Shown here: positions 5,134 through 26,486 of the stretch, one piece after another | Layout: each line of letters opens with the position of its first letter | Position numbering within the stretch: position 1 is the first letter of the stretch | Source: Herbiconiux sp. | GTDB lineage: Bacteria > Actinomycetota > Actinomycetes > Actinomycetales > Microbacteriaceae | Reading direction: 5' to 3' | Length of the DNA stretch: 64,000 bases | NCBI RefSeq assembly: GCF_023264855.1 | Contig: NZ_JAHFUW010000010.1 | Coordinates: 33,790 to 97,789, forward strand | Program-made: the position numbers and the translations under genes | Notes under the pieces: model-generated | The model's input: only the letters and a program-made list of their open reading frames with translations | What the model was told of the DNA's origin: nothing | The model's database searches: none

Positions 5134-6077
5134 CACAGGACCCGCGTATTCGACGGACCCACAGCAGCAGGATCTCCGGCAAACCAGATGTCTGCCTCTG
5201 AAGGTGCCAAGGCTCGCACCGAGGCCGAGGCCGCCTCCCTGTCGGGATGAGCGGCACGGTAGGCAGAACGGATGGTTGTGATGATCTCCCGTTCACCCAA
5301 ACCCGCATCCGAAGCAGCAGCGCCCAGTACGTCGAGGGCATTGGAGGTTGGCAGGCCGTTCTCCGCAAGCCGGCACGCGGCCCAGAACAGGCTGCGGTTC
5401 CGCTCACCCTCCGCGCGTCCAGCGACCCACGCCGCCAACCGCGACACATCCGCACCTTGCCGCCGAGCTGTATTCATGGGCTCGCGAACTGTGGGGCGCG
5501 GGTCGAGGAAATCTCGCAACCGATCCGAGTCGAGCACCGAGGACGTTCCGGCCTCGACCCGCCGCACCCGATAACCGACAACGTCTCCGGCGATGGACAT
5601 CCGTGAGGGTGGGACGACGATGTATCCGCCGTCGCCACGGAAGTCGATCCCCGCGCGCGCCGCCTGCCAGGACCGTTGCACCTGACCAGGCGTTGATCGG
5701 TAGTAGGCGTGCATCCCGCCGGACGGCGTGGATACCAGGAGCTGCCACCCGTCCAGCAGATCCGCTCGATGGGCGCGCGAGAAACCACGAAACCCATCGA
5801 TAGGGCCATGGACATCGACATCCACCACGACCATTCCCGAGGGTGCGCCGGTCGGGACGCCGATGTTCGCCCCGGGAGACCGGCCCCACCATGCGGCTAC
5901 TCGGTCGGCGTCGGTGGTGGCGTCGTGGAAGCCGTGCTCGGTCAGCGGTCGCTTCCCGCCCGGTATGCACGGGAACACCGGTACTCCCACGCGGGCCAGC
6001 TCTTCGGCGGCAGCAGGCAACGACTGCGGGGCGGATGGTCGCGTCAGCGCACGGGCGAACACGTCTGGAAGGGCCAT
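5133..6077 (-). CDS. Bifunctional DNA primase/polymerase (Prim-Pol) domain protein
   Basis: GVPVFPCIPGGKRPLTEHGFHDATTDADRVAAWWGRSPGANIGVPTG...VVVDVDVHG; typical replication protein of actinobacterial mobile elements. Confidence 0.85.
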   Translation of the reverse strand: MALPDVFARALTRPSAPQSLPAAAEELARVGVPVFPCIPGGKRPLTEHGFHDATTDADRVAAWWGRSPGANIGVPTGAPSGMVVVDVDVHGPIDGFRGFSRAHRADLLDGWQLLVSTPSGGMHAYYRSTPGQVQRSWQAARAGIDFRGDGGYIVVPPSRMSIAGDVVGYRVRRVEAGTSSVLDSDRLRDFLDPRPTVREPMNTARRQGADVSRLAAWVAGRAEGERNRSLFWAACRLAENGLPTSNALDVLGAAASDAGLGEREIITTIRSAYRAAHPDREAASASVRALAPSEADIWFAGDPAAVGPSNTRVL

Positions 6078-7183
6078 CACATGCCTCTCTCTCGCGCCGT
6101 TGCGGTTGCTACGGTCGTGACCCGCGCGCCAGCGTCATGTAGTAACGCTGCGCGTTCGGGCGCTGACCGTTCGCTACCGGGCTGGGTCCGTTGCGGTGTC
6201 TCGCGGTCCAAACCCGGTGGGGTGCCGTCCCCGATCTGGGTGGTATCGAGCTGGTCGAGGATTCCCATCGCGGTCTTGCGAACCCGCTCACCGGTGGTCT
6301 TGACGATCTCGACCGGCTCCTTTCCGTCGACCCTGGCCGCCCACGTCGACACGTACGGAATCGTGTAACCAGACGTGTCCATGCCGTGGGCAGCGCCGAT
6401 CATCAGCGCGACCGACTCTGCCTCGACCTCCCCGATTCCACGATGCTGGCGAGCGTTCTCGGCGTCAGGGACGTGCATGAGCACATGACCGAGTTCGTGA
6501 GCGAGAGTCTTCACCTGCGAGGCCGGGTCCATGTTTTCTCGCACCGCCACCGTCTTCGCGGTGTAGTCCGTCATCCCGTTGGCACCGTGGATCATCCCCT
6601 CATGCGGGACCCGCAGCACCTCAAACCCGCGCTCCTCGACCACGGTTGCCAGTCCGCGCCATAGACCGGCAGGTGCCTCGCCTTTCAGCAGGCGTGGTGA
6701 GGGCGGTTCCGGGATCGGGTCTCCAGCCGTCTGCGCGACATCCCACACGTAGGCAGGGCGGGCGGCGATCATCTTCGACCGCACGACCTCGCCCGGCCGG
6801 GGCCTATCGCCCTTCCCAAGCCGACGCCATGAATCGGAGGCAGCGGGATTCGATGAGGCGAAGCGTCCCGTTACCGGGGCGAAGATCATGTACCCCGACT
6901 GGCCCTTCTCCACCTGACGGCCCAACCCCTGCCACTGCCTGTAACCCGCGACAAAGGACGGCATCGGGTCGGGCACGCGACCTGCCTCGTAGGCGGCCTC
7001 ATGCTGCGCCCAGATCAGCAACGTGTTGGAAAACGATCGCGCCCGAAACCGTGCCGCGAACGCGAGCGCCCGAGCCCAGTCATCACCGGAGACGAGCTGT
7101 TCCACAGCGCCGGTCAGGCGCTCATGCAGCTCGTCGAGCTTTGCCTCCCGCGCCTCCTGGGATTGCTCCCGCGTTCTGGCCAT
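6077..7183 (-). CDS. ArdC-like antirestriction / ImmA-IrrE-type metallopeptidase-like protein
   Basis: FSNTLLIWAQHEAAYEAGRVPDPMPSFVAGYRQWQGLGRQVEKGQSGYMIFAPV and LAHELGHVLMH (HExxH) motif. Confidence 0.8.
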   Translation of the reverse strand: MARTREQSQEAREAKLDELHERLTGAVEQLVSGDDWARALAFAARFRARSFSNTLLIWAQHEAAYEAGRVPDPMPSFVAGYRQWQGLGRQVEKGQSGYMIFAPVTGRFASSNPAASDSWRRLGKGDRPRPGEVVRSKMIAARPAYVWDVAQTAGDPIPEPPSPRLLKGEAPAGLWRGLATVVEERGFEVLRVPHEGMIHGANGMTDYTAKTVAVRENMDPASQVKTLAHELGHVLMHVPDAENARQHRGIGEVEAESVALMIGAAHGMDTSGYTIPYVSTWAARVDGKEPVEIVKTTGERVRKTAMGILDQLDTTQIGDGTPPGLDRETPQRTQPGSERSAPERAALLHDAGARVTTVATATARERGM

Positions 7184-7416
7184 GGCCTGGTCTCCTCCCG
7201 ATACCCTGAGCACCGGGCCGATCGGGCTCGGTGACCATCAGGTACGCCGGGACCACCAGCAATGAGACGGACAGCGAAACGAGCGATGTGACCGTCGGGC
7301 GCGGCGGTGAACCCAACGAGTCTTCACCGGATTACCAGCCAATTAGCCACCTCGGGCGAAGCATCGGGCGAGGATGCGGATGCATGTACCGCCGATGCGC
7401 ACATGTGTATCGCGAC

Positions 7417-8346
7417 TCAGACTGTGAACGTTTGTCGGCTCAGTTGTCGGTACCTGACCGGAGTTACTCCAACGGCTTGGCGAAACATCCTTGCGGCATG
7501 GCCCCGGCTCTGCCAGCCCACCTGCCGCATCGCCACTTCGACGGGTAGGTCTGTGTCTCGCAGCAATCGCGCTAAACCCTCGGCGCGCACGGTCGACAGG
7601 TAGGTCATTGGCGTCTTACCGTAGGCATCCACAAACACTCGGCCGAGTTGCGACGGCGACAAGTGCACAGCAGCGGCGAGAACTTGGAGTGTCCACTGTT
7701 TCTCGGGGTGGTTGTGGAGCAGTTCGAGCGCCTCTCGGGCTTCGGCGCGCAACGGTGCAAACCGGCGAAGCGACGGAGGGCCAGGCCGGCGGGTCGTCTT
7801 CCGATCGCTAGGAATGCGGCGCACTGGGGTGGTCCTCATATAGGGAGTAATCACGTCGAGCACCGCGAAAAGTAGGGCTTGCATCCGAAAGAACCGATCC
7901 GAATCTGCGCCGTCGATGCTCAGTGCCACTAGTTCGTCCAGCCAGGGCATGAGCATCCCGGCGCGCTCCTCGCCGAGGCGCACTATTTGGGCTGGTTCGG
8001 AGTACAGCTCGTTAGCGAAGCCTTGCGCATCCCATCGGTCGGCGAGCAGCGCGGCGTGCTGCCAAAACACCTGGTCGATGATGTATTCATGGTCGAGGTA
8101 AAGGGTGCTGACAGTGATTGAGCCTTCGGGCTCGCTTCCACACAGCGTGTCGGCAGCAAGAGCGATGACGTCACCGACTTTTACGGGTTTCTCGCCGAAC
8201 TCACTTCGCACGATCGCGGAGCCATGACGAACGAAGATCACCTTGACACAGTCGTAGGCCACCGGCTCCATGGGGTGATGTATCGTCCGGGTGCGTGCCA
8301 CTATCGGACTGAACGGACGCGCCGGACCAAGGTTGGCGTGATTCAT
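7417..8346 (-). CDS. AraC family transcriptional regulator
   Basis: C-terminal double HTH: LQVLAAAVHLSPSQLGRVFVDAYGKTPMTYLSTVRAEGLARLLRDTDLPVEVAMRQVGWQSRGHAARMFRQAVGVTPVRYR. Confidence 0.9.
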   Translation of the reverse strand: MNHANLGPARPFSPIVARTRTIHHPMEPVAYDCVKVIFVRHGSAIVRSEFGEKPVKVGDVIALAADTLCGSEPEGSITVSTLYLDHEYIIDQVFWQHAALLADRWDAQGFANELYSEPAQIVRLGEERAGMLMPWLDELVALSIDGADSDRFFRMQALLFAVLDVITPYMRTTPVRRIPSDRKTTRRPGPPSLRRFAPLRAEAREALELLHNHPEKQWTLQVLAAAVHLSPSQLGRVFVDAYGKTPMTYLSTVRAEGLARLLRDTDLPVEVAMRQVGWQSRGHAARMFRQAVGVTPVRYRQLSRQTFTV

Positions 8347-9886: not shown

Positions 9887-10972
9887 ATGCCTGAATCTTG
9901 TGCTTTCTGCGGGTCGGTGGGGCCCCTGACCCGCGAGCACGTTTTCGGTCAGTGGGTGAGCAGGACTGGCTTGGATCTCGCTCCGATGCGTCATCACGCA
10001 GGCCCGTTGAATGCTCTGCCGCGCGACATGGGGGAGCAGCCCGCATTCCGGCTGACAGTGAAGAGCTTCTGCGCCTCTTGTAACAACGGGTGGATGAGCA
10101 ACCTCGAAACGGTCGCGCAGCGAGTGCTCACCCCGTTGATCCTCGACGAGTCCGGGACGATCGCGCTGGAAGATCAGGCGGCGATCGCAACGTGGGTGCA
10201 GAAGACCGCGCTGACAGCGATGCTCCTCTCCAGCAAGGAGCAGCGGGAAAACGGCTACGGGCTCGCCCCGTCGGAGTACAGGGCACTCTACGAGCGCCGC
10301 GAGCTGGTGCAACCGCTGGATTTCAGCCAGTTCTGGGTCGGCCGATTCGAAGGAGTCCAGGGATTCTCGGCTGTACGCGTCACGCCGCTGACAGTTCGCA
10401 TCCCAGGCTTTCCCGAGCCGCCGCGGCCTCAGGGCTACGCGATGACGATCGTCCTTGGAGCGCTCCTCCTGCACGGCGTGCGGTTCACCACTCCAGGTCT
10501 TCAGGCGGACTCGAAGACGGAGCTGGGGATGCCACCGTTGTGGCCGTCGGAAACGTCGTTGATGTGGCCGGCGGGGCAGACGTGCACGGAGAAGTCTCTG
10601 CTTGCTCTCGCGGATGGGGGGACGTTGCGTGCAACGGGTGGGGAGGTGCGACTGCAACCCTGGTCTCACGCAGCTCACCTGCCGCAGAGCGCCTTCGAGA
10701 ATGGTGCAGTCAAAGTTCCGGCGCTGTGCCGTAAGCACGACATCTACTACCCCGCGGCGCTTTTGCAAGAAGCGCAGCAGGGGCGGTTCTACGCATTCAT
10801 GACTTCGTGCGAGTGCAGTGCCTATCTGATCCATACGGATTCTGACCGCATCCGCTTCCGAGCCGCGGGCGAACCGGAAGGCATCGGGGCCATGTACGTG
10901 GACATGGTTGGCGACGAGTTCCTCATCGAGGACCATATCGGGGAGTTCGCCTGCAAGAGACTGCCCGCCTGA
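9887..10972 (+). CDS. HNH/zinc-finger-like protein of mobile elements, function unknown
   Basis: N-terminal CAFCGSVGPLTREHVFGQWVSR...CASCNNGWMSNLE Cys4/HNH-like pattern. Confidence 0.6.
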   Translation: MPESCAFCGSVGPLTREHVFGQWVSRTGLDLAPMRHHAGPLNALPRDMGEQPAFRLTVKSFCASCNNGWMSNLETVAQRVLTPLILDESGTIALEDQAAIATWVQKTALTAMLLSSKEQRENGYGLAPSEYRALYERRELVQPLDFSQFWVGRFEGVQGFSAVRVTPLTVRIPGFPEPPRPQGYAMTIVLGALLLHGVRFTTPGLQADSKTELGMPPLWPSETSLMWPAGQTCTEKSLLALADGGTLRATGGEVRLQPWSHAAHLPQSAFENGAVKVPALCRKHDIYYPAALLQEAQQGRFYAFMTSCECSAYLIHTDSDRIRFRAAGEPEGIGAMYVDMVGDEFLIEDHIGEFACKRLPA

Positions 10973-11015
10973 CGCGACCGGCAGCGCCAAGCGCGGGCAG
11001 GTGCACCTGCTGCAT

Positions 11016-14000
11016 GTGACGGTCTCGATGCGAGTGATGTCCGCAGGTGACGGCTACAAGTACCTCCTGCGTACGGTCGCCGCCGCAGACGGCGACAGGT
11101 CGTTCTCGACGCCCTTGACTCGCTACTACGCCGAGGCGGGAACCCCTCCAGGCCAATGGCTCGGGTCGGGCGTAGCGTCCCTCGGGAGCGGTCAGCTCGC
11201 GGTGGGTGATCGAGTGTCCGAGGCGCAGCTCCAGCTCCTCATGGGGATGGGCCGTGACCCGATCACCGGAGATCCCCTCGGGCTAGCGTTCCCGGCCTAC
11301 AAATCCACCTCAGAGCGGATCGAGGCGCGGATCGCAGACCTCGCCCCAACGATGTCTCCCGGTGCAATGGGAGACGCGGTCGCGCAAATCCAGGCCGAGG
11401 AGACCGAGCGCGGGACGCGACGGGCGGTGGCGGGCTTCGATTTCACCTTCTCGATTCCGAAGTCTGCATCCGTGTTGTGGGCGGTCGCGGATGCGGGGAC
11501 GCAAGCGTTGATAGGGGAGGCGCACCACACGGCGGTTGCGGAGGTAGTTGCATTCATGGAACGCGAGGTTGCAGCCACTCGCACCGGCGCGACCGCCGGC
11601 GACGGGGCCGTTGCGCAGGTCGATGTCACAGGCCTGGTCGCGACGGCCTTCGACCACTTCGACTCCCGTGCCGGTGATCCCCACCTGCACACCCATGTCG
11701 TCATCTCCAACAAGGTCCGAACCGCTCTCGACGGGAAGTGGCGGAGCCTCGATGGACGGCCGATGCACGCCGCCGTCGTCGCGCTATCCGAATTGCACGA
11801 GGCCGTGTTCGCCGACCACATGACCCGCACGTTCGGTGTCAAGTGGGAAGCCCGTGACAGGGGTCGTGACCGCAATCCCGCATGGGCGATCAGCGGCGTG
11901 CCGGAAGAGTTGGTGGCCGAGTTCTCGACTCGCGCCCGGCACATTGATACCGAGACCGACCGCCTCATCGCCGACTACGTGAGCAAACACGGCAGGCGGC
12001 CAGCCCCGGCGACGATCTTGAAGCTGCGCGCCCAAGCAACCCTCTCCACACGGCCCGACAAGGAGGTCCGATCGCTGGCTGACCTCACTACCGAGTGGCG
12101 GTCGCGCGCCACCGCCGTTCTCGGTCAGGACGCCACGACCTGGGCACGCAACCTCACAAACAACAACAGCCCGCTCCTGCTGCGCGCCGACGACGTGCCG
12201 CTGGAGAGCATCGAAGAACTCGGTACCGCGGTGGTAGAAATTGTCGGCGAGAAGCGGTCGACCTGGCGGCGATGGAATCTGATGGCTGAGGCCTCGCGGC
12301 AGACGATGCGCTGGCGCTTCGCGTCCATGCGGGATCGAGAGGCGATCGTCGGGATGATTGCTGACGCTGCCGAACAGGCGTCGCTGCGGCTGACCCCACC
12401 GGATCTTGCCACCAGTCCAGCCGCGTTTCGCCGTGTTGACGGAACCAGCGTGTTTCGGCCCAAGCACTCGACCGTGTTCTCTTCCGAGCTGTTGCTGGCC
12501 GCCGAAGACCGACTGGTCGACCGCTCTCGCACGCTGACGGCACCCGCGGTCTCGGTGGGCTCGGTCGAGAAGATCACCTCTCGCCCCGACTCCGAGGGCC
12601 GGGTTCTGAGTGAGGACCAGGCCGACGCGCTCATGAAGATTGCTGTCTCTGGCCGGATGCTCGACGTACTGGTCGGCCCCGCTGGCGCGGGCAAGACGAC
12701 GGCGATGAATGCCCTGCGCCGCGCGTGGGAAGTCGAACACGGGACAGGGTCCGTGGTCGGGCTCGCGCCGTCCGCGGTGGCCGCGCAAGTGCTGGCGGAC
12801 GATCTTGGCATCCAGACCGAGAACACGGCGAAATGGTGGCAGAACCACCTTGTGCACGGGACCTCGTTTGACGCAGGTCAGCTCGTCATCATCGACGAGG
12901 CGTCGCTGGCTGGCACCCTGTCCTTAGATCGGATCACGCACCTGGCTGAGCGGGCAGGAGCGAAGGTGTTGCTGGTCGGCGATTTCGCCCAGCTCCAGTC
13001 CGTAGACGCAGGCGGCGCGTTCAATCTCGTGGTGGCCGACCGGGACGAAGCGCCGGAGCTGGTTGACGTTCACCGCTTCACGAACGCGTGGGAGAAGTCA
13101 GCATCGCTGGCTTTACGGCACGGACGTACGGAGGTAATCGGCACCTACCTCGACCATGACCGCATCCGAGGCGGTGAGGCCGATCTGATGACCGATGCCG
13201 CCTACTCGGCATGGCGAGCCGACAGAGATATAGGACTGGCATCGGTGCTGGTCGCGGAGACCCGCGACCAGGCGACCGCGCTCAATACCCGCGCCCGCGC
13301 AGACCTCATTCTCGACGGCACCTTGATGCCAGGCCCAGAAGTCGAACTCGCTGACGGGACGATGACCGGCGCGGGGGACACGATCATCACCCGCCGCAAC
13401 GACCGCAGACTGCGCAACGGCAAGGACTGGGTCCGCAACGGCGACACCTGGGCCATCAACGACGTCCGCGACGACGGGTCGGTCACCATCCGCCGGACTG
13501 GACGCCGCTTCGGCGGGGCGATCGTGCTTCCGGCTGCCTACGTGGCTGAGCACGTTGACCTCGGCTACGCAGTCACGGCCCATCGTGCACAGGGCATCAC
13601 CACCGATACCGCGCATGTCTTGGTGGAGCCGACCACGACGAGGGAGAACTTCTACGTCTCGATGACCCGCGGCAAGCGTTCCAACCACGCATATGTGGTC
13701 CTCGACCGAGCCGACGACGGCCACGCCGCCCCGCACCCGGGCGACAACCCCGATGCCACAGCACGTTCCGTGCTCTACGGCGTCCTGCAACACGTCGGTG
13801 CCGAGCTGTCCGCGAACGAGACCATCACCAACGAACATGAACAGTGGGGCTCGATCGCCCAGATCGCCGCGGAGTACGAGACCATCGCGGCGGCCGCCCA
13901 ACGAGACCGCTGGGCCACTCTCATCCGCGACTCTGGTCTCACCGACGATCAGGCAAGCTCTGCTGTCGACTCCGATGCATTCGGGGCTCTGACTGCCGAG

Positions 14001-14567
14001 CTACGCCGGGCCGAGGCAAACCATCACGACCTCGACCGCTTGCTCCCGCGTCTCGTGGCCGCGCGGGGATTCGGTGACGCCGACGACATCGCCTCGGTCC
14101 TCCACCACAGGGTGGCGCGGGCAACCGCACGGCCGGCACGCTCGGGCCGCGTACGCGAGGCACCGCGGCTGATTGCCGGACTTGTCCCGGCTGCGAGCGG
14201 TCCCATGGCCGACGACATGCGCCAAGCACTCGACGAACGACGCGATCTGATCGAACAGCGAGCCGATGCCGTGCTCGACAGCGCCCTGAACGATGGGGCC
14301 ACGTGGACGAAAGCTCTCGGCTCGCCACCTCGCCCGCAGGCGAAGCGACAGGCCTGGTTCAGAAACTCCCGCACTGTGGCCGCCTACCGCGACCGATACG
14401 GCATCACCGACGACACTCCTCTCGGCCCCACCCCGGTGGCGACCGCGCAGAAGATCGATGCCGCCCGTGCGAAGGCGGCGCTCGACGGGGCACGTAGTGT
14501 CACAGCCGGCCAAGAAGAGGCGCTGGGGCGGCAACGTGGACGCGAGCCGTTGGGCCGTTCGTTCTGA
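11016..14567 (+). CDS. MobF-type conjugative relaxase-helicase (TraA/TrwC-like)
   Basis: GDGYKYLLRTVAAADGDRSFSTPLTRYYAEAGTPPGQWLG; HFDSRAGDPHLHTHVVISNKV three-His motif; helicase Walker A VGPAGAGKTTAMNAL; AVTAHRAQGIT. Likely start GTG 11016 or ATG 11028. Confidence 0.93.
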   Translation: MTVSMRVMSAGDGYKYLLRTVAAADGDRSFSTPLTRYYAEAGTPPGQWLGSGVASLGSGQLAVGDRVSEAQLQLLMGMGRDPITGDPLGLAFPAYKSTSERIEARIADLAPTMSPGAMGDAVAQIQAEETERGTRRAVAGFDFTFSIPKSASVLWAVADAGTQALIGEAHHTAVAEVVAFMEREVAATRTGATAGDGAVAQVDVTGLVATAFDHFDSRAGDPHLHTHVVISNKVRTALDGKWRSLDGRPMHAAVVALSELHEAVFADHMTRTFGVKWEARDRGRDRNPAWAISGVPEELVAEFSTRARHIDTETDRLIADYVSKHGRRPAPATILKLRAQATLSTRPDKEVRSLADLTTEWRSRATAVLGQDATTWARNLTNNNSPLLLRADDVPLESIEELGTAVVEIVGEKRSTWRRWNLMAEASRQTMRWRFASMRDREAIVGMIADAAEQASLRLTPPDLATSPAAFRRVDGTSVFRPKHSTVFSSELLLAAEDRLVDRSRTLTAPAVSVGSVEKITSRPDSEGRVLSEDQADALMKIAVSGRMLDVLVGPAGAGKTTAMNALRRAWEVEHGTGSVVGLAPSAVAAQVLADDLGIQTENTAKWWQNHLVHGTSFDAGQLVIIDEASLAGTLSLDRITHLAERAGAKVLLVGDFAQLQSVDAGGAFNLVVADRDEAPELVDVHRFTNAWEKSASLALRHGRTEVIGTYLDHDRIRGGEADLMTDAAYSAWRADRDIGLASVLVAETRDQATALNTRARADLILDGTLMPGPEVELADGTMTGAGDTIITRRNDRRLRNGKDWVRNGDTWAINDVRDDGSVTIRRTGRRFGGAIVLPAAYVAEHVDLGYAVTAHRAQGITTDTAHVLVEPTTTRENFYVSMTRGKRSNHAYVVLDRADDGHAAPHPGDNPDATARSVLYGVLQHVGAELSANETITNEHEQWGSIAQIAAEYETIAAAAQRDRWATLIRDSGLTDDQASSAVDSDAFGALTAELRRAEANHHDLDRLLPRLVAARGFGDADDIASVLHHRVARATARPARSGRVREAPRLIAGLVPAASGPMADDMRQALDERRDLIEQRADAVLDSALNDGATWTKALGSPPRPQAKRQAWFRNSRTVAAYRDRYGITDDTPLGPTPVATAQKIDAARAKAALDGARSVTAGQEEALGRQRGREPLGRSF

Positions 14568-15125: not shown

Positions 15126-16082
15126 ATGGCGCGCGCCGACCTGCTTCTTGACCTCGTTGAGGCCGAGCGTCACGGGGACCGTGATCGGTTCCGCACCCTC
15201 GTAGAAGCGGTGATCGCCGAAGAGCGTGCCAACCAGCACCACCTCGTGGCGGACCGTCTCTCTGAGCTGATTACCACGACCGGGCAAGGGCTTGTCCGCG
15301 ATGATCGCGCCACCGCGATTCGAGACCTGGTTCACGAAATCGTCCCCAGTCGTCGCCTCGATGACCTTGAACTCGCCCCCGTTCCACGGCGGGTCGTCAC
15401 AGAACTGATTGAGGAGCAGAAGCGCGCTGAGCTGCTCCGCAGCTACGGGATCGAACCTCGCAACCGGCTCCTACTGTCCGGCCCCCCGGGCAACGGTAAG
15501 ACCAGTGTCGCGGAGGCGATTGCTTCCGAACTGATGCTCCCCTTCTACGTGATTCGTTACGAAGGCGTCATGTCCAGCTTCCTCGGCGAGACAGCCGCCA
15601 GGCTCGACAACGCCTTCGAGTTCGCGCGCACGCGACGATGCGTATTGTTCTTCGACGAACTCGACACCATCGCGAAGGAGCGGTCAGATCAGCACGAGAC
15701 GGGCGAGATCAAGCGCGTCGTGTCCACCCTGCTGCTCCAGATCGACCGGCTCCCTGCGCACGTACTCTTCGTCGGCGCGACCAACCACAGCGAACTACTC
15801 GACCGCGCCGCATGGAGGCGCTTCCAGATTCGGGCCGAACTCGAACCCCCGAGCCGCTCCGAAGCAACGCGGTTCCTAGAACGGCTCGCCGCACGGCTCG
15901 GCGGTGACCTCGGCTTCGCTCCACGCACATTGGCAGACAAACTCGCTGGCGCCAGCTACTCCGAACTGGAAGAGTTTGCTCTCGACGTGCGCCGCCGAGC
16001 GGTGCTGGAACTGCCGGACAGCAACCTACGGCGGATTGTGCAAGAACGTCTTGAGCACAGGCGCGGTCAGGCCACTGCGTGA
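15126..16082 (+). CDS. AAA+ ATPase (IetA-like)
   Basis: Walker A LLLSGPPGNGKTSVAEAIA, Walker B RCVLFFDELDTI, GATNHSELLDRAAWRRF; GGGAGG SD before ATG; 4-bp overlap with downstream subtilase. Confidence 0.9.
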   Translation: MARADLLLDLVEAERHGDRDRFRTLVEAVIAEERANQHHLVADRLSELITTTGQGLVRDDRATAIRDLVHEIVPSRRLDDLELAPVPRRVVTELIEEQKRAELLRSYGIEPRNRLLLSGPPGNGKTSVAEAIASELMLPFYVIRYEGVMSSFLGETAARLDNAFEFARTRRCVLFFDELDTIAKERSDQHETGEIKRVVSTLLLQIDRLPAHVLFVGATNHSELLDRAAWRRFQIRAELEPPSRSEATRFLERLAARLGGDLGFAPRTLADKLAGASYSELEEFALDVRRRAVLELPDSNLRRIVQERLEHRRGQATA

Positions 16083-18691
16083 CCGCGGAGCGCCGACCGC
16101 TCCTGGCATTCGGTCCGCCAGTCGTCGCCGAACGGCCCACGCAGACTCCGCGAGACATGCCGCGCCTATCCAAACCCAGTGCGGGCAGGCAGGGAGAGCG
16201 GTTAGCGCCTCAATTCGGTGACCTGACCGCAGCGTTCGACGCCGAGCGGGTGCGTCTCTCCGCGGAAACCCCCGACGAAGTCGATCCGGCGCTGGTGGTT
16301 GTTTTCGACCTCGCAGGCAGCATCAAGGACTTCCGCAACGCGATCGACCAGATCGACGGCCTTGAGTTCCTGTCGGAGTTGCTGGGGGACCAATCCGATC
16401 CAGACGACGACTTCTACATGGCCGAACGGGAAGCTGGGCGCACGGACAAACCCATCACGCACTCCCTCTACCTCGTGATGTCGAACGCCAAGGCGATCGA
16501 AGAACTCTTGAGATTGTTCACCCTGTGGCAAGAGGATCCATCGGCCTCATTCGTGCACGGCCTTGGCAAGTTCAAGTCGGCGTTCCAACAGTTGACCGCG
16601 ATCCGACGATGGGGCCCAGAGGACCGCATCCGTGAGACAGGGCTACGCGAGCAGTGGCAGGAAACCCTCGACCTCGTCGGACAGTCCGTCAGCACGGTCA
16701 CGGTCGAAATCGAACTCTGGTACCGACGCGACGCGGTGCAGCGCGTCAGCGCCCAGACCCACATTGAACAAACCATCACTGCCAGCGGTGGACGGGTTAT
16801 CGACCAATCGCAGATCGGCGACATCGGCTATCACGCAGTGCTCGCGGAACTTCCTATCCAACAAGTTCATTCCGTACTCAACAATGGCGCGGAATCCATC
16901 CGACTGCTCACAACCGACGAGGTCATGTTCGTCAGCCCGTTCACGCCCATGAGTGTCGCGCCACCTACCCTCGAACCCGTCGCCGAAGTTCGACTCCCAC
17001 CCGGAGATCGAGTGGACGGCCTACCACGCATCGCACTCCTTGACGGGCTTCCGTTTCCGAACCACGACGCCCTCGCAGGCCGGCTAGTGGTCGATGACCC
17101 TGACGGCCTTGCTGAGCGCTACCCGCTGTCATCACGCAACCACGGCACTGCGATGGCGTCACTCATCGTGCAAGGCGACCTCTCCATCGGCGGCGAACCG
17201 CTGGACCGCCCCTTGTACGTGCGACCCATCATGCGGCCCCACGAGTTTGCCGCAGGGTACGAGCAGATCCTCCCCAACAGACTCCTCACCGACCTCCTAC
17301 ACCAGGCCATCAAGCGCATTGTCGAGGGCGAAGGGGGAAGGGCAGCAGTCGCACCCAGCGTCCGAATCGTCAACCTCTCCATTGGTGCCCAAGCGAGAGC
17401 CCTCGTGAGAAGGATGAGCCCCGTCGGACGTCTGCTCGACTGGCTCGCCCACTCCTACAACCTGCTTTTCATCGTCAGCGCAGGCAACCACAGCGACCCG
17501 ATTATCATCCCCGCCGCGGCCCTTACGGATTCCGACGCCGCGCGGTCAGCGGCAACCCGTTCCGTCTACGACGCCGCGCTCCTGCGGGGCATCTTGCCCC
17601 CGGGCGACGCACTCAACGCACTCACCATTGGCGCTACTCACGAAGACGGACTCGGAGACATCGACGTGCCCGACACCGTCTGGGACATCACCCACCCACG
17701 CGCGCCGGCTCACTACGGTGCGACAGGTCCCGGTGTCGATCGATCCGTCAAGCCGGACCTCCACCACACCGGCGGAAGGGCGCTCTACACCCGCCCGATC
17801 ACCACGCCCGGTGACGAAACAGTCACCATCGAGCCGGCCCATACAGCAATCGCGGGCCCCGGCCTCCAAGTAGCCGCTCCCGGACGAGCGGGCGCGACCA
17901 ATAACACCGTGTTTACGGTCGGCACCAGCAACGCCACCGCATTGGTGACGCGCGAGGCGAGTCGCCTGTTCGACATCCTGGAAGCAGGCGCACCCGATGC
18001 TCAGGACGCAGCATTGCCCGATCCGCAATACCACCCACTGCTCGTACGCGCCCTCCTTACCCACGCAAGCAACTGGGGCGACTGGGAACCGAGACTTCGC
18101 CGCGAACTTGGACTCAGCAATCAGCAGGCCCGCCGGAGCCTGACAGCGCTTCTCGGATATGGGCGGCTCGACGCCAGCCGGCTCGGAACCGCCGCAACAA
18201 ACAGAGCTGTACTCGTTGGCGGAGGACTGATCGCGCGGAACCAGCGCCACACGTACGACTTGCCGCTGCCGCGGTCTCTTCGCGCGCGAGCGGAGTGGCA
18301 CCGCTTCACGATCACCCTCGCATACATGGTTCCGACCGTGGGTCAGCTCACAAGGTATCGAGGTGCCAAGGTCTACTTCGCGACACCCGATACCAGCCTC
18401 GCCGGCGGAGACCGAACGGACGCTGAGCACAACGCGGTTAGGCGGGGGAGTCTCCAGCACGAGATCGTCCAAGGGACTCGAACGATGGTCTTCGGCGACG
18501 GAGACGCGTTCCCCATCCACGTCGAATGCATGGACGATGCCCAACGGCTCCGTGCAGGCAAGACCGTCCGGTACGCGCTCGTGGTCTCCGTTGAAACGGC
18601 CGAGGAAACTTCCACGACCATCCACGATGAGGTTCGCGCGCAGCTCCGGCAGCAGATTCGCGAGCGTGCCCGCGGGCGTGTGCAAAGTTGA
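16079..18691 (+). CDS. Subtilisin-like serine protease (S8; IetS-like)
   Basis: Catalytic D in RIALLDGLPFPNH (~17042), H in NHGTAMASLI (~17141), S in VGTSNATALVTR (~17927); GTG start overlapping AAA+ stop. Confidence 0.92.
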   Translation: MTAERRPLLAFGPPVVAERPTQTPRDMPRLSKPSAGRQGERLAPQFGDLTAAFDAERVRLSAETPDEVDPALVVVFDLAGSIKDFRNAIDQIDGLEFLSELLGDQSDPDDDFYMAEREAGRTDKPITHSLYLVMSNAKAIEELLRLFTLWQEDPSASFVHGLGKFKSAFQQLTAIRRWGPEDRIRETGLREQWQETLDLVGQSVSTVTVEIELWYRRDAVQRVSAQTHIEQTITASGGRVIDQSQIGDIGYHAVLAELPIQQVHSVLNNGAESIRLLTTDEVMFVSPFTPMSVAPPTLEPVAEVRLPPGDRVDGLPRIALLDGLPFPNHDALAGRLVVDDPDGLAERYPLSSRNHGTAMASLIVQGDLSIGGEPLDRPLYVRPIMRPHEFAAGYEQILPNRLLTDLLHQAIKRIVEGEGGRAAVAPSVRIVNLSIGAQARALVRRMSPVGRLLDWLAHSYNLLFIVSAGNHSDPIIIPAAALTDSDAARSAATRSVYDAALLRGILPPGDALNALTIGATHEDGLGDIDVPDTVWDITHPRAPAHYGATGPGVDRSVKPDLHHTGGRALYTRPITTPGDETVTIEPAHTAIAGPGLQVAAPGRAGATNNTVFTVGTSNATALVTREASRLFDILEAGAPDAQDAALPDPQYHPLLVRALLTHASNWGDWEPRLRRELGLSNQQARRSLTALLGYGRLDASRLGTAATNRAVLVGGGLIARNQRHTYDLPLPRSLRARAEWHRFTITLAYMVPTVGQLTRYRGAKVYFATPDTSLAGGDRTDAEHNAVRRGSLQHEIVQGTRTMVFGDGDAFPIHVECMDDAQRLRAGKTVRYALVVSVETAEETSTTIHDEVRAQLRQQIRERARGRVQS

Positions 18692-20409
18692 CCCGGGAGA
18701 CGGACCACGATTCCGGCGGCAGGAGTGCCGTGTCAGCGTACGAAGAGTGGTACCAGCGGGTTCTTGCCAGCCACAGCGAATCTGCGGATCTTCGTGTCGC
18801 CTCACAGAGAGTGTTGTCCATCGCGGGGGAGATCGACGGCTCACCACTCGTTGGCGACGAAAAGGCTGCGCTGAGATACGTTTGCTCGTCACTCGTCATC
18901 AACGCGGGGGCCGACCTTGCCGATGTCGGGCTCCTCACCGAAGGCCAAGAGCTTGCGTCACGCGCGCGCAGCGACACTACTCCCGAGCAGCCGCTGCACT
19001 TTCAGTGCATGTACAACGTCGCTAACGCAATCGTCACAGCATCTGACCTCGGCTTGCCCACGCAGGCAACCTCCGAAGAACGAGCGAGCGACCTTGCGGA
19101 AAATCGTCGCGCCAACCGAGTAGAGCTTCGCCGTGCGAGGCAAATGTTTCTCACCGTCGGATCTTCGCCGTACGCAGATCCACACACGCGGTCGGCTGCA
19201 TACTGCAATCTTGCGAACTGTCTCGACCACTCCGGGCGATGGGCTGAAGCCTACGACTTCTACCTACATGCGCTCGAAGCCGATCCATCGAACGGCAACG
19301 CCGCAGGAAATCTTGCCCAGCTCCTCATGAACAGAGTCCAATCAGGAGTCGGACAGACCGGTCACATCGCAGCAGTCTTCGACAAGTACGTGAAGATGGC
19401 CCAGTCCCTGCGCGACGGCACCATCAGCTTCGCCGGCGCGGACACGGCCAACCGATGGGATGGACTCGAGCCCACCGAAAGCCCAGGACACCTTTCGCAC
19501 GGCTTGGATGGCGTCGAGGACGAGTACCTCAAATGGATCGCCGCGTACAGACTCGCCCTGTCACCGGCCGTTGAAGGACTCGGCACCGAGGACCCACACT
19601 GGGACAGCGCCTCGATCGAAGTTTTATACGGCGGTTCTCCAGAGGAAATGTCTCCGCCGATTCTCGCCGAGATGAATGTCTTGAAATCTGACTTCCTCGT
19701 CTCGCGTCAGTTGGCGTACGAGGGGTATGTGCAAGTCGCCGAAGGCCCGGAGCAGAAGGATGACGACTCCGGATACTACGTTGAGACGCTCGACTATTCG
19801 CTCTACGGCCTTCAATATTCGAAGCTCCTTCTCGCTCAACGATCCGCCCTCGACGTTCTGGATAAAACAGCCGTCGTCGCCAACGATCACTTCGAGGTGG
19901 GAGACGAGGCGCGTCGAGTTTCCTTCCGGAAGTTCTGGGCAACCAAGGACGGCACTGTGCGGCCTGAGCTGGTGAAGGCCCCACGACACGCATTGCCCCC
20001 GTACGCGCTTTCCGAACTTGCATACGACATGGAAGATGCAGGCATGTATGCCCCCTCGCAGGCTCTTCGCAACGCCGGCACCCATCGAATCGTCCATGCG
20101 GCATTCCTAGACCCGACGGGTGTGACGGTTGACGCCCGCAGCCGGGTTGATCTCTTCGAACTCGTTGACTCAACGATGCTCGCACTCCAAGTAACTCGGT
20201 CCGCTTACCTCTACCTCATCGACCTTGTCGCGAGCTGGAACCACCCCGCCGATCATCCTGGTACGTACATGCCCTTCCCCTCCTTCGAGTACATGCAGTT
20301 CCCCGAAGACCCCGAACAAGATCCGCAGGCCGACGCGCACGAATCCAGGGAATCAGCTGGGGCACAACCAGGCCCGGACACTGACAGAGATGCAGGACCG
20401 GACTCGTAG
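18688..20409 (+). CDS. TPR protein with C-terminal HEPN-like domain (LA2681-type candidate)
   Basis: TPR-like AAYCNLANCLDHSGRWAEAYDFYLHALEADPSNGNAAGNLAQLL; C-terminal LDYSLYGLQYSKLLLAQRSALDVLDKTAVVANDHF...QALRNAGTHRIVH with RNxxxH; TTG start overlaps the subtilase stop by 4 bp. Confidence 0.75.
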   Translation: MTRETDHDSGGRSAVSAYEEWYQRVLASHSESADLRVASQRVLSIAGEIDGSPLVGDEKAALRYVCSSLVINAGADLADVGLLTEGQELASRARSDTTPEQPLHFQCMYNVANAIVTASDLGLPTQATSEERASDLAENRRANRVELRRARQMFLTVGSSPYADPHTRSAAYCNLANCLDHSGRWAEAYDFYLHALEADPSNGNAAGNLAQLLMNRVQSGVGQTGHIAAVFDKYVKMAQSLRDGTISFAGADTANRWDGLEPTESPGHLSHGLDGVEDEYLKWIAAYRLALSPAVEGLGTEDPHWDSASIEVLYGGSPEEMSPPILAEMNVLKSDFLVSRQLAYEGYVQVAEGPEQKDDDSGYYVETLDYSLYGLQYSKLLLAQRSALDVLDKTAVVANDHFEVGDEARRVSFRKFWATKDGTVRPELVKAPRHALPPYALSELAYDMEDAGMYAPSQALRNAGTHRIVHAAFLDPTGVTVDARSRVDLFELVDSTMLALQVTRSAYLYLIDLVASWNHPADHPGTYMPFPSFEYMQFPEDPEQDPQADAHESRESAGAQPGPDTDRDAGPDS

Positions 20410-20756
20410 GTGCACCCGACTCGGCGAGCCAGCGTACGGAGCACGCTAGGACAGGTCGCCCACGTTGATAGATCGCTCGGCACGCAGAATCGCTTCCAGC
20501 ACCACATTCGGATTACACCGGTGCCCGGGCTCAAAGAGATGCTGGCGCAGACCGACCTACGTGCCCGAGCGGATGCCGACACGACGGTCGCGCGTCCACG
20601 CTTCGCCGAGGCGACCTGACCGCGGTGCGATATCCGCGGCACTCGTCTATGCCTGCTTCCCCCTGCTGGAGCCCGCCCCGTACAAGATGCGGTCAAATCA
20701 TGCTCGTACGGCGGGGTCAGATCGGATTGGCTCGATGTGCGGAGCATCATGGGAAT

Positions 20757-21767
20757 GTGAGTCCTCGCCACCACCTCGTTCCGCAGTTCTACCTGCGAAA
20801 CTTCGCCGATAGCAACCAGCAACTGGCACTGGTCGATCGCGACCGACCAGACCGCGTCGTACGAAGCGCTGTTCGGAAAGCCTGCGCCGAAGTCGGCTTC
20901 TACCGGATTGAGACCGAGGTCCTTGCTCGCGACGAAGATCGTGCCGGCCACGACCCAGAGTCGATCGAGCACCACCTGAGCCAGTTCGAACAGGCCGCGG
21001 CTCCCGCCGTGTACAAGCTGCTCCGTACAGGCTGGGCCGACTTCACCACGGAGGACTGGTACCACCTGATCAATCACATCGCTCTCCAGACCATCCGCGG
21101 ACATCGGTGGCGTGAGGACTTCAACGCGATGGCCACCCACCACATGCGGCTACAACTCGGAGAAACAGTCACAGACGACAGCGTCCGGACCTGGCTTCAC
21201 GCGAACGGCCGCCCCGCCTCCGCGGATGACGTGGGCATCTTCAAGGCTGAGATGCTCGGCCCGTCCGGGCCCAAGTTGGTGGCACCCGACGCTGTGATGA
21301 TCCAAGAGGGCATCAAGCTCGCTTTGGGCGAACTCGGAGAACGTCTGGCCCACCAGATGACTTGGTCACTGATCCTGAGCGACACCGAGCCCGTCCTCAC
21401 CTCAGATGAACCAGTGTGCTGGTGGTCACCAGGTGATGCGCCAGTTGGCTATCTGACGGCAAGCATCGTGTGGCTTCCTTTGAGTCCGCGCGTGATACTC
21501 CAGTTGCGTGACCGCGAGGCTGAGCATGAGGAGTTGGGCCTTCCTCCGTGTTCCACTCCCGCTGGCCGCGATGAACTCGTCCGCCTAGTCAATAGTCAGA
21601 TCGCGAACCAAGCACACCGATGGGTCGTCCATCACCCAGACGACCGTCCGCTCGACGGCCTCCAGATAGCGCTGCGAACAACGTGGGGCGACCAGTTCAT
21701 CAGCGCTAAGAAGGACGGAAGCACGAGTCATGAGCTTTGGGTCCACCGACGGTTACCCGCGCAATAA
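20757..21767 (+). CDS. DUF4238-like protein
   Basis: N-terminus VSPRHHLVPQFYLRNFADSNQQLALVDRD matches the HxxVPQFYLRNF hallmark; conserved W(x)LxLSDTEPVLTSDEPV-type block (MTWSLILSDTEPVLTSDEPVCWW). Confidence 0.8.
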   Translation: MSPRHHLVPQFYLRNFADSNQQLALVDRDRPDRVVRSAVRKACAEVGFYRIETEVLARDEDRAGHDPESIEHHLSQFEQAAAPAVYKLLRTGWADFTTEDWYHLINHIALQTIRGHRWREDFNAMATHHMRLQLGETVTDDSVRTWLHANGRPASADDVGIFKAEMLGPSGPKLVAPDAVMIQEGIKLALGELGERLAHQMTWSLILSDTEPVLTSDEPVCWWSPGDAPVGYLTASIVWLPLSPRVILQLRDREAEHEELGLPPCSTPAGRDELVRLVNSQIANQAHRWVVHHPDDRPLDGLQIALRTTWGDQFISAKKDGSTSHELWVHRRLPAQ

Positions 21768-21807: not shown

Positions 21808-21971
21808 ACGGGAGGCGCATTGTCTGATCGAGATACGCTGGCTGACCAGGAACTGATGACCGCCCCGAAATCACGTTCATGTGCAGAGATCCCAGACACG
21901 GCGTCCGAGACTGCGTCTCGACGCGCGCGGTACAACCACGCAAAGACGCACCTCTCCGCCAAGATGGGCAG

Positions 21972-23834
21972 ATGGACGATGATCCTCCTGCAGCCTTGAA
22001 TCCCGACGCGCTCGCCGATCGCGCATGGGACGAGGCGCTCGCCGCGGCGGTGGCGGCGGGTGGTGACTACCACGACTACTGGACGGCTATCGGCAGTGCT
22101 GCCAAGGCGGCTCGCGAATCGGCCCCCGAGCTAGAGCGGACCTTTGCACTGTTCGCGAGTATTGCATCGCTTATGCTGCAACCCGACAAGCCGGCCGAGC
22201 CATACACCCCAGCAATCGTGATGAGCACGGGCAGGACCATGGCCGAAGAGGACTTGGGGCAGGAGGAGTTGGTGTTCCTCGGGTCGGTGGTCAGCACGCT
22301 CGAACCTCCGAAGTTACGTGCAAGGGTGGGGGACATTCTGTGGCGAAGGAGCGAGCGTGAGAGTCGATATAGGTTTGGGGTGATCGCGCTTGACGCTTTC
22401 CTGCTGGTCGACCTGACCCCTGACTCTTGGGCCGGTGATGGCGAAGACTGTTGGGCGCGGGCGATCGAAATTGCCTATCGCAGTAACGCGAAAGAGAAGC
22501 TAAGCCAGATCTGTCAGCACCTCCTGACTCTCTTCGACGAGGCCACAGTCAACGACGGCTACTACTTCATGGCGCTTGCCACCCTCCTGTTCCGGTCGCG
22601 GGTTCCGGAGGCAGACACCCACAAGGTTGCCGATCGCTTGCACGCCCTAAGCAGCGAGCTGGAGGAAAGCGGCGACCTCTGGCGCGCGAGAGATTTCCTA
22701 CTTGAAGCGGAGCGCTGGTATCGCAAGCTCGGGGCGCGCGACACAATCCTCGACATCCACGTTCGCGAAGCGGACCTATGGCAGCGCGAAGCCGCCATGG
22801 CGTCGTCGGGGGAGGCAGCAAGGCCCGCGTTTGTAGTGGCAACCTATCTGGAGAGCGCGCTCAAGGCATTGCTGAAGGTTCCGCGGGCGCAGCGGGGACC
22901 ACGCGGACTCGACCCCAGGATCGAAGTGATTAGGTGGGAGATCCGAGACGCACACGCCGCCGCGGTGCAGCAGATGGTTGCCTTCGACTCACCGGTCATC
23001 GACCTGACCAAGGCAGCACAGCAGGCTCGCGCCCGGGTCAAAGAACTCGACGTGATCACCGCCTTGAAGAACTTCGTGACTCTCGCACCGTATGCCTCAG
23101 ACGCGGAGAGCAGGCAACAGGCGACCGCAGCGGTGAACGAGCCACGCATATTGAACCTGGTAAGCCGTGTCGTCTACACCCCGGACGCCCGAGTCGCGGC
23201 ACGAAGCACGCCAACGCTCGGCGAGGAGAACCAAAACGAGCGGATCTGGCATGTCATGGTCTCAGAGTTCAGCGAACGCGCGACCCGGATAGCGCACGGG
23301 GTGATCTTGCCGGCTTTGTCCCAGCTTCACGTCGATCATGGTCTCTCACTTCGAGACTTTAAAAACATTGCTCAGTCCTCCGCCGTGGTGCCGGCCGACC
23401 GCGAGGGACTGTTTGCGCTTGCGCTGTTCCACGGGTTCAACCGAGATTTCACGTCGGCTCTGTACATCTTGGCGCCGCAGATGGAGAACCTTGTCCGGCA
23501 AGTACTGAAGTCAGCGCGGGTCTCCACCAGCACCTTCGACGCCGACAATCTCGAGACCGAGAACAGCTTGAACGCGCTGCTGGAGCGTCCTGAGGCGGCC
23601 GAAATCTTTGGCCCGGACCTCGTATTTGAGTTGCGGGCGCTCTACTGCGAGCAGGTCGGACCGAATCTGCGCAATCAGGTAGCCCACGGTCTGCTCGACG
23701 ACGATGAGTCGGCCTCCTCTCACGCGGTGTATGCCTGGTGGCAAGCGCTGCGGCTGGTCTACATGCCCTACTGGAATCAGTACCGGGCAGAAGCGGTACC
23801 CACAGACGAAGACCGAGATGACCCAGATCAATAG
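21972..23834 (+). CDS. DUF4209-like protein with HEPN-type RNxxxHG motif
   Basis: C-terminus LYILAPQMENLVRQVLKS...FGPDLVFELRALYCEQVGPNLRNQVAHGLLDDDE; RNQVAHG at 23670-23690 matches DUF4209's described RNxxxHG. Confidence 0.8.
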   Translation: MDDDPPAALNPDALADRAWDEALAAAVAAGGDYHDYWTAIGSAAKAARESAPELERTFALFASIASLMLQPDKPAEPYTPAIVMSTGRTMAEEDLGQEELVFLGSVVSTLEPPKLRARVGDILWRRSERESRYRFGVIALDAFLLVDLTPDSWAGDGEDCWARAIEIAYRSNAKEKLSQICQHLLTLFDEATVNDGYYFMALATLLFRSRVPEADTHKVADRLHALSSELEESGDLWRARDFLLEAERWYRKLGARDTILDIHVREADLWQREAAMASSGEAARPAFVVATYLESALKALLKVPRAQRGPRGLDPRIEVIRWEIRDAHAAAVQQMVAFDSPVIDLTKAAQQARARVKELDVITALKNFVTLAPYASDAESRQQATAAVNEPRILNLVSRVVYTPDARVAARSTPTLGEENQNERIWHVMVSEFSERATRIAHGVILPALSQLHVDHGLSLRDFKNIAQSSAVVPADREGLFALALFHGFNRDFTSALYILAPQMENLVRQVLKSARVSTSTFDADNLETENSLNALLERPEAAEIFGPDLVFELRALYCEQVGPNLRNQVAHGLLDDDESASSHAVYAWWQALRLVYMPYWNQYRAEAVPTDEDRDDPDQ

Positions 23835-23845
23835 GGCAAGCAGCG

Positions 23846-24619
23846 ATGTTCAGGACGGAGCACGTCAGAATGGCTGAGCAACACGCACCCGACCCGGAGC
23901 AGGAGTTCGGTGTCAACGTCCTTGAGAACTTTTTTGTGACGTGGGTCGAGCCGGAGCTCGCCCGACGTCGACTGCCCGCCGATCGGAGCTTCGTGTGGGC
24001 AGCCGTCGTGGAGCTCCTTCCTGGTGGTGGCTCCAAGACGACGCTCAATAGTGAAGCCAAGATCGCCGCAAAGGCGGCCCCCTCCGCAGGGATCGCGCCG
24101 GGCACGCCGCTGACCGAGCAGAACATCGAAAGCCTCGAAAGTTTCCAACCGGCCGGAGTCGGGGCCGACAGCGGTTGGATCGTCTACGTCGTGTTCGCAG
24201 GGGCTCCGTACCTTGCGTTTGACTTCCGCTACAACAAGAGCCGCGTCGGCGAGCTACTCGATCTCGCCGACGACTACATCACGACGGCCCGGGCGTCCCA
24301 CGCGACGGCCGTTCGTCCCGCTATCGATAACCTGTACTCCGCGGCCGAGCTCACCGTCCAAGCGCAGATGCTCGGCGAGTCCCAGAAGACCACCTTCCAC
24401 CGAGTCCGCGCGGAGTGGCTGAAGAACGCGGCCGACATGGCGAACGTTCCGCCCACGCACAACGACGTACTCGACCGCCTGCATGGCCAGCGGGCAGCAG
24501 CCCGCTACGCAGATGGCCCACTGCACATGACGGTCACCGACGTCGCCGAAGCGCTTGAGGCAGTGACCCAGATGATCGACTTCGCGCGCCAGCGCACCGG
24601 CGTTCCTCGCCAGGATTAA
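23846..24619 (+). CDS. Hypothetical protein with C-terminal HEPN-like helical region
   Basis: IDNLYSAAELTVQAQML...FHRVRAEWLKN...THNDVLDRLHGQRAAARYADGPLHMTVTDVAEALEAVTQMIDFAR resembles HEPN helices but lacks a clear RNxxxH; starts 12 nt after the previous stop. Confidence 0.55.
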   Translation: MFRTEHVRMAEQHAPDPEQEFGVNVLENFFVTWVEPELARRRLPADRSFVWAAVVELLPGGGSKTTLNSEAKIAAKAAPSAGIAPGTPLTEQNIESLESFQPAGVGADSGWIVYVVFAGAPYLAFDFRYNKSRVGELLDLADDYITTARASHATAVRPAIDNLYSAAELTVQAQMLGESQKTTFHRVRAEWLKNAADMANVPPTHNDVLDRLHGQRAAARYADGPLHMTVTDVAEALEAVTQMIDFARQRTGVPRQD

Positions 24620-25014: not shown

Positions 25015-25695
25015 GTGGCTCGAGAAATCGGTGCGCACATGATGCTGGCCGAGTGGCTGTTCGTGGAGACGGTCGCCGATCTGCGCAACCGCAGCCGTGA
25101 CCCAGCGTCTCGGCGCCGGTACGAGCTGCTTGGCATTGCACCGTTGCTTCGGAAGCTTCTCACCGATCGCGGTGACCCCTTGCTCGTAACCGTCAGGCGG
25201 GCACGACACGAAATCACGCCGGGATTCCGGATTCGACCGTGGCAGGTTCCTGGTAGCGCAGACGAGTCGCTCAACTATCTGATTCGCTTGAGCGGTCCTG
25301 AGCTTGTTGGCGACGCGGCGACTGACGCGCTGATGGCGGATCAATTCCTTGCGGCGAGAGTTGGGATGATTGAGGGTCAGGACCTGTCCGTCAAGCAGGT
25401 CATCCGCTACTACGCCCATGTCGAGGGTGGCGTCCACTTCGGTGACCCGGACGAAGACGGTCAAGAAGCGATGAGCAGTATGGCTCCCGTGCTGCTGGGG
25501 CACACTACGGGGCAGATCGAGATTCTTGGATACCTCGGGCAGGTCGTCGTCGACGCTCTGACGCCGCTGTGCGATTCGATTCTCACTTCGCCCACGATCG
25601 TCCCGGAGATGCACCGCCTCAACCGCTCGGGCTTCTACGACCATCACTGGACCACGGAGCACCACGCGAAACGCCAACCAAAGACAATTCGATGA
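25015..25695 (+). CDS. Hypothetical protein
   Basis: GAGGAGG-type SD upstream of GTG 25015; 4-bp overlap with next gene. Confidence 0.6.
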   Translation: MAREIGAHMMLAEWLFVETVADLRNRSRDPASRRRYELLGIAPLLRKLLTDRGDPLLVTVRRARHEITPGFRIRPWQVPGSADESLNYLIRLSGPELVGDAATDALMADQFLAARVGMIEGQDLSVKQVIRYYAHVEGGVHFGDPDEDGQEAMSSMAPVLLGHTTGQIEILGYLGQVVVDALTPLCDSILTSPTIVPEMHRLNRSGFYDHHWTTEHHAKRQPKTIR

Positions 25696-26486
25696 CAGGC
25701 CTCGCAGAGAGAGCCGAGCGGATTGCAGCACATTTGGTCGGCTACGAAACCGGTGCCAAGGTCGTTCCTCATGACATCGACGGTCGACAAAGTGCTGTCG
25801 ACTATTTACTTGTCTGGCCGGACGGACGCCGTGGCGCTCTTGAAGTAACGCTCGTCATAGATAGAGCGTCAATCGCATGGCAAGGCATGGCGATGAAAGA
25901 GGGCTGGCGTTGGCCGGCGGCCAGCTCGTGGGAGTTCCGCTCAGCTGGGCCAAATTTTCCCTACAAGTTCGTACGGCGAGCGGTTTTGCGGGCAGTCGCG
26001 CTCTGCGACGCCCACGGTGCAGACCGGCCCGAAGAGCTGCCCCTGGCGGTACTTGAAGACGAGCTAGAACTGGCGCAGTTCCTCGCCGAGGAGCTCGGCA
26101 CGCTCCGACGTGCGAAGCTCGATCCTGGCGTGGTGATTTACCAGTCCATGCACGCAGAGTTCGTCGACAATGCTCCTTCCGATTTCGCTCGGGTCGTCGA
26201 GACCTTGCATGGAGAACCCCACATGGCGTCGCATCTCAAGAAGCTGAGGCGCACGGCAGATGTTTCAGAGCGCCACCTGTTCTTGGTTCCGACGGACGAT
26301 GTGCTGCCGGCCCGATTCTTCACCGATGATTTCCAGCCGCCCATTTCTGCTCCAGCGGGCTTCGGCTCCGTTGATGCGCTTTGGATCTGGTCGAACTACT
26401 GGCACCGGTACCTCGCGTTCCGGAACGATTCGTGGGCTTGGGTCGACTTCCCGCCCCGTGTTCAAGCACCAGCGGGTACTACATAA
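25692..26486 (+). CDS. Hypothetical protein (possible PD-(D/E)xK-like segment)
   Basis: ATGA overlap with upstream gene; AVDYLLVWPDGRRGALEVTLVID resembles D...ExT strand arrangement. Confidence 0.55.
   Translation: MTGLAERAERIAAHLVGYETGAKVVPHDIDGRQSAVDYLLVWPDGRRGALEVTLVIDRASIAWQGMAMKEGWRWPAASSWEFRSAGPNFPYKFVRRAVLRAVALCDAHGADRPEELPLAVLEDELELAQFLAEELGTLRRAKLDPGVVIYQSMHAEFVDNAPSDFARVVETLHGEPHMASHLKKLRRTADVSERHLFLVPTDDVLPARFFTDDFQPPISAPAGFGSVDALWIWSNYWHRYLAFRNDSWAWVDFPPRVQAPAGTT

Follow-up and report, generated by a model that had tools for sequence, protein, structure and literature searches.

A TPR-HEPN_LA2681 gene behind an IetAS pair in a Herbiconiux defence island, a putative single-gene abortive-infection effector

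In this work we analysed a 64,000-nucleotide stretch of a Herbiconiux sp. contig, referred to here as the window, and we propose that one of its genes (18730..20409, + strand) is likely to encode a self-contained abortive-infection effector working as a single gene, in which a TPR sensor or holder is joined to a putative RNA-cutting HEPN domain of the LA2681 type. The gene is a member of an already named TPR-HEPN family and not a new kind of system, and the proposal builds on its family membership, the conservation of its motif, the selection acting on it and its genomic context, all of which we observe directly.

The family assignment comes from a match of the window protein to the Pfam profile HEPN_LA2681 (PF18733; E 2.5e-35, 122.1 bits against a cut-off of 27), which covers profile positions 4-201 of 204 and residues 319-514 of the protein, counted from a start at 18688 (window positions 19642..20229, + strand). 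The preliminary description of this DNA had tentatively named the LA2681 family, and the guess is borne out by this match and by those of the homologues, 11 of 11 of which also match PF18733. It had also placed the RNxxxH motif exactly: RNAGTH, the predicted catalytic motif, lies within the profile match at 20068..20085 on the + strand (CGC AAC GCC GGC ACC CAT). From its amino-acid composition, the protein would contain 0.029 motifs of this kind by chance, and one is observed. Moreover, R461 and H466 do not vary across the 11 aligned members, which come from Actinomycetota and from the Alpha-, Beta- and Gammaproteobacteria, and N462 is kept in all except one (10/11), so the lack of conservation that the preliminary description had named as grounds for giving up its reading is not seen. 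Similarly, all eight members of a second set keep R, N and H; five of them are prophage-type proteins found on viral contigs, and one of these five has matches at ≥99% in E. coli chromosomes. LA2681 has been listed among the HEPN families with a conserved motif and a fusion to TPR (Anantharaman 2013, PMC3710099). The window protein shares with HEPN_LA2681 the conserved RNxxxH, the TPR fusion and the strong profile match, while its clade differs in adding an acidic disordered tail and in following an IetAS pair in three loci. Our literature search found no assay or experiment on any LA2681 protein.

The + strand reading frame described earlier, 18688-20409, is present, although its first 14 codons are probably untranslated. 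This is because the homologues from Leifsonia (L002) and Sediminivirga (L004) begin, in the alignment, where the window protein reads VSAYEEW, which corresponds to GTG 18730, and because a candidate ribosome-binding site, AGGAG (18721..18725, + strand), lies 4 nt 5' of that codon. Thus, as judged from the sequence, the true start is probably GTG 18730 and the protein has 559 aa, not 573. The same two observations led us to reject a start at TTG 18688, which overlaps the IetS stop. The gap between that stop (18691) and the GTG is 38 nt, and the HEPN gene may be co-transcribed with IetAS.

The N-terminal part of the protein (18730..19449, + strand) is read as a TPR-like alpha-solenoid from Pfam matches, an AF2 model and structural matches. 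The Pfam matches (TPR_17, TPR_1 and others) fall at residues 170-215 (19195-19332), and TPR_1 is detected in 8 of 11 family members. In the full-length AF2 model, which was built with seven sequences and has a mean pLDDT of 73 and a pTM of 0.79, residues 1-240 form a helical solenoid, mostly at pLDDT >80 and with values of ~90, which contains the TPR-like helices that had been noted ahead of the HEPN domain. Beyond the solenoid the model contains long helices at 309-337, 356-388 and 475-503 and a short helix at the motif, 444-451. As a whole, the model matches mostly TPR and similar repeat folds, with TPR proteins at the top (Z up to 13.9), and the search for solved structures by sequence returned only TPR-containing proteins among the matches listed.

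Folded alone, the HEPN half gives a model with a mean pLDDT of 53 and helices at 53-80, 99-131, 161-174, 187-201 and 218-246. Foldseek with this model returned no match reaching E 0.001. HEPN proteins came up mainly in a further comparison by VIA-align, which paired the same model, at pLDDT 53, with the HEPN protein 4nqf (Z 8.4, rmsd 3.5, 121 aligned) and also with the HEPN protein 2hsb (Z 7.6), MntA-HepT entries and Csm6, the HEPN matches having Z of 6-8.4. Because the pLDDT is low and helical bundles can match by chance at these Z values, the fold match lends weak support, and the HEPN assignment is carried by the sequence profile. The matches of the low-confidence C-terminal model include several solved HEPN proteins, so that a non-HEPN fold, which would have spoken against the preliminary description, is not indicated.

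The different parts of the protein are conserved to different degrees. Compared with its two closest intact relatives, the protein is 88% and 81% identical in the HEPN part, 71% and 63% in the N-terminal half, and 46% and 38% in the C-terminal tail. The HEPN part is under the strongest purifying selection within the protein, with dN/dS of ~0.04-0.06, ratios that are rough because synonymous sites are near saturation, and this selection supports a functional coding gene. The tail (20299..20406, + strand) had been described as acidic and as a possible disordered segment with a putative regulatory or protease-accessible role, and its acidity and disorder hold: its 36 aa contain 11 D/E and 2 K/R, and it is predicted to be disordered, with pLDDT ~30. 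In the 11-member alignment the tail is absent outside the actinobacterial clade of the window protein.

Directly upstream of the HEPN gene we found a complete IetAS pair, a new context that is absent from the preliminary description. IetA, an AAA+ ATPase (15126..16082, + strand; PADLOC PDLC04232, 479.2 bits, E 1.8e-144), and IetS, an S8 subtilisin-like protease (16079..18691, + strand; PADLOC PDLC04233, 1055.6 bits, and Pfam S8), stand in tandem with a 4-nt overlap and are probably a module separate from the HEPN gene. IetAS is known from pTiC58 and from SGI1 (there called SgiAT), and its protease and ATPase have been described as forming a toxin-antitoxin pair (PMC5006074). Further upstream lies a gene for a TrwC-type relaxase (10908-14567). 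Directly downstream of the HEPN gene there is a gene for a DUF4238 protein (20625-21767; PF14022, E 1.9e-39); a single DUF4238 protein from the hotspot of P2-like phages is described as conferring resistance to T7 (PMC9122126). It is followed by a gene for a DUF7380-DUF4209 protein (21879-23834; PADLOC PDC-S39, 629 bits). This C6orf70-like protein resembles the LA2681 protein in having a C-terminal HEPN-type motif of its own, RNQVAH, within the same island, and differs from it in belonging to other Pfam families (PF13910 with PF24098). The next gene (23846-24619) starts 11 bp after the PDC-S39 gene and is possibly its partner; its product has a sub-threshold match to the HEPN profile PF05168 (20 bits against a cut-off of 22) and no evident RNxxxH. 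Two overlapping same-strand reading frames, 25015-25695 and 25569-26486, lie at the end of the low-GC region and are possibly further island genes; neither has a Pfam or PADLOC match. The GC content is 61-65% over 14-26 kb of the window, compared with ~70% beyond 28 kb. We interpret this region, with its relaxase, IetAS, DUF4238 and PDC-S39 genes and its lower GC content, as a defence island carried by a mobile element.

LA2681 genes elsewhere also have defence genes as neighbours. Among 5426 complete E. coli genomes, 11 carry an LA2681 gene. In the one genome inspected, ECCTRSRTH03 (L051, 9001-12924), it lies in that interval of a P2-like prophage which is bounded by the P2-type replication gene A and portal gene Q, and it adjoins a retron Ec67 gene. 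In P2-like phages, the gpA-gpQ interval is a hotspot for anti-phage systems that has been validated by experiment (PMC9122126). The E. coli P2-like prophage protein WP_000354145.1 has the same TPR-HEPN_LA2681 layout and RNxxxH as the window protein, but is ~21% identical to it and sits in the hotspot without IetAS. On plasmids, LA2681 genes adjoin Qat in Agrobacterium (L010, 9671-16230) and, in the opposite order, in Sulfitobacter (L011, 4660-11200), and other plasmid neighbours include CBASS and AbiEii-type genes. Across the sampled lineages no constant neighbour recurs beside LA2681. The INPHARED phage set contains no record with a match, and two single-protein scans of viral contigs gave no match either. 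The recurrence of LA2681 genes in defence islands and in a prophage hotspot points to an anti-phage role.

The position of the HEPN gene directly behind IetAS raises the question of whether it is part of that system. Known IetAS is a two-gene system of an AAA+ ATPase and a subtilisin-like protease, whereas the window locus has the HEPN gene behind it. It is tempting to speculate that HEPN is the third part of an IetAS variant, in which a phage disturbs IetA, IetS is thereby unleashed and cuts or releases HEPN, and RNA is degraded, the disordered acidic tail being an example of a site at which IetS might cleave. The order IetA-IetS-HEPN is found in three related actinobacterial loci, those of the window, Tetrasphaera (L003) and Sediminivirga (L004), with HEPN ~66 nt behind IetS in Sediminivirga as against 38 nt in the window. 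In Leifsonia (L002), a divergent IetAS lies ~5.7 kb upstream of HEPN with other genes between, and the acidic tail occurs only in these IetAS-linked relatives. However, in a comparison of 19 complete IetAS loci, 16 have no LA2681 gene downstream of IetAS in the DNA examined (~1.5 kb or more; 0.7 kb in Gordonia), and they include plasmids of Kocuria and Gordonia with 84% IetS identity. In terms of synonymous difference, the IetS genes of Gordonia (0.11) and Sediminivirga (0.14) are similarly near to that of Tetrasphaera, yet no HEPN follows the Gordonia one in the 0.7 kb examined. In Tetrasphaera, two lesions disrupt the HEPN gene (L003, 8007-9247), a frameshift close to residue 95 and, upstream of the RNxxxH motif, an insertion at about locus position 9247; the IetAS beside it is intact. 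Outside the clade, we found no IetAS within the ~4-10 kb checked on either side of LA2681 genes in nine other sampled lineages, the loci without it coming from Rhodococcus, Alteromonas, Paraburkholderia, Agrobacterium, Sulfitobacter, Roseovarius, Tistrella and viral contigs. An obligatory or constant partnership is not supported, HEPN being absent from 16 of 19 IetAS loci in the DNA examined and disrupted in one of the remaining three, and HEPN and IetAS are separable modules. We consider it unlikely that HEPN is a third component under the control of IetS; the broader reading, that one actinobacterial clade has seen IetAS recruit a TPR-HEPN RNase as its protease-controlled effector in a three-gene system, is given the same small chance. 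HEPN is probably independent of IetAS for its function. Against full independence stands the fact that the window-type HEPN follows IetAS in three related loci, and the two may cooperate functionally where they are adjacent.

Other features of these loci deserve mention. We had considered that HEPN was acquired independently in the window and in Sediminivirga, given its higher synonymous divergence than that of IetS; this idea was not sustained and we dropped it, because IetA shows the same divergence at four-fold sites (0.62 against 0.63, near saturation). In the Leifsonia locus L002, just upstream of HEPN (5264-7727), there is a possible ubiquitin-like conjugation pair, formed by a 214-aa repeat-like protein and a 479-aa protein with matches to E1-type ubiquitin-activating enzymes. 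In the Leifsonia sequence L045 (1009-2298), the long reading frame that holds a divergent IetA starts with residues resembling part of the window TrwC relaxase, as though IetA had inserted within a relaxase gene or just behind one.

Somewhat less likely than a third component under IetS control is that the window HEPN acts as a toxin whose antitoxin is a neighbour, such as the DUF4238 product, the pair serving to maintain the mobile element. Other HEPN toxins are known to have antitoxins, MntA-HepT is among our structural matches, and IetAS has itself been described as a toxin-antitoxin pair, but no neighbouring gene recurs beside LA2681 across lineages and therefore there is no conserved candidate antitoxin. 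Least probable of all is that the protein acts as a TPR scaffold whose HEPN domain binds RNA but has lost the ability to cut it, or that it serves normal RNA processing and not defence, for even though catalysis has been lost in some HEPN families (PMC3710099), RNxxxH shows no variation at R or H here, and the patchy occurrence of the genes on plasmids, in prophages and in defence islands does not suit a housekeeping role.

We therefore return to a self-contained abortive-infection effector as the preferred explanation and consider how it might act. TPR solenoids bind peptides or proteins, and in HEPN RNases two domains pair, one active site being formed from both RNxxxH motifs, and cut RNA independently of metal. 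By analogy with this general knowledge of HEPN toxins, from which we infer the RNase activity, the dimerisation, the trigger, the RNA target and the growth arrest, the TPR-HEPN protein would lie dormant, its TPR-like solenoid sensing or holding a partner, until a signal made or induced by the phage and sensed by the TPR half released it. Two copies of the LA2681 HEPN domain would then form the composite RNxxxH active site and cut cellular RNA upon infection, and this degradation would stop both growth and phage replication, halting the infection at the cost of growth.

The window gene is thus a well-supported addition to the LA2681 HEPN family. Because ordinary E. coli carries homologues in the P2-like anti-phage hotspot, the family is directly testable in a standard laboratory host. 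In addition, the repeated adjacency to IetAS offers a simple test of protease control over HEPN; if such control were true, a subtilisin-like protease would switch on an RNase in a three-gene system.
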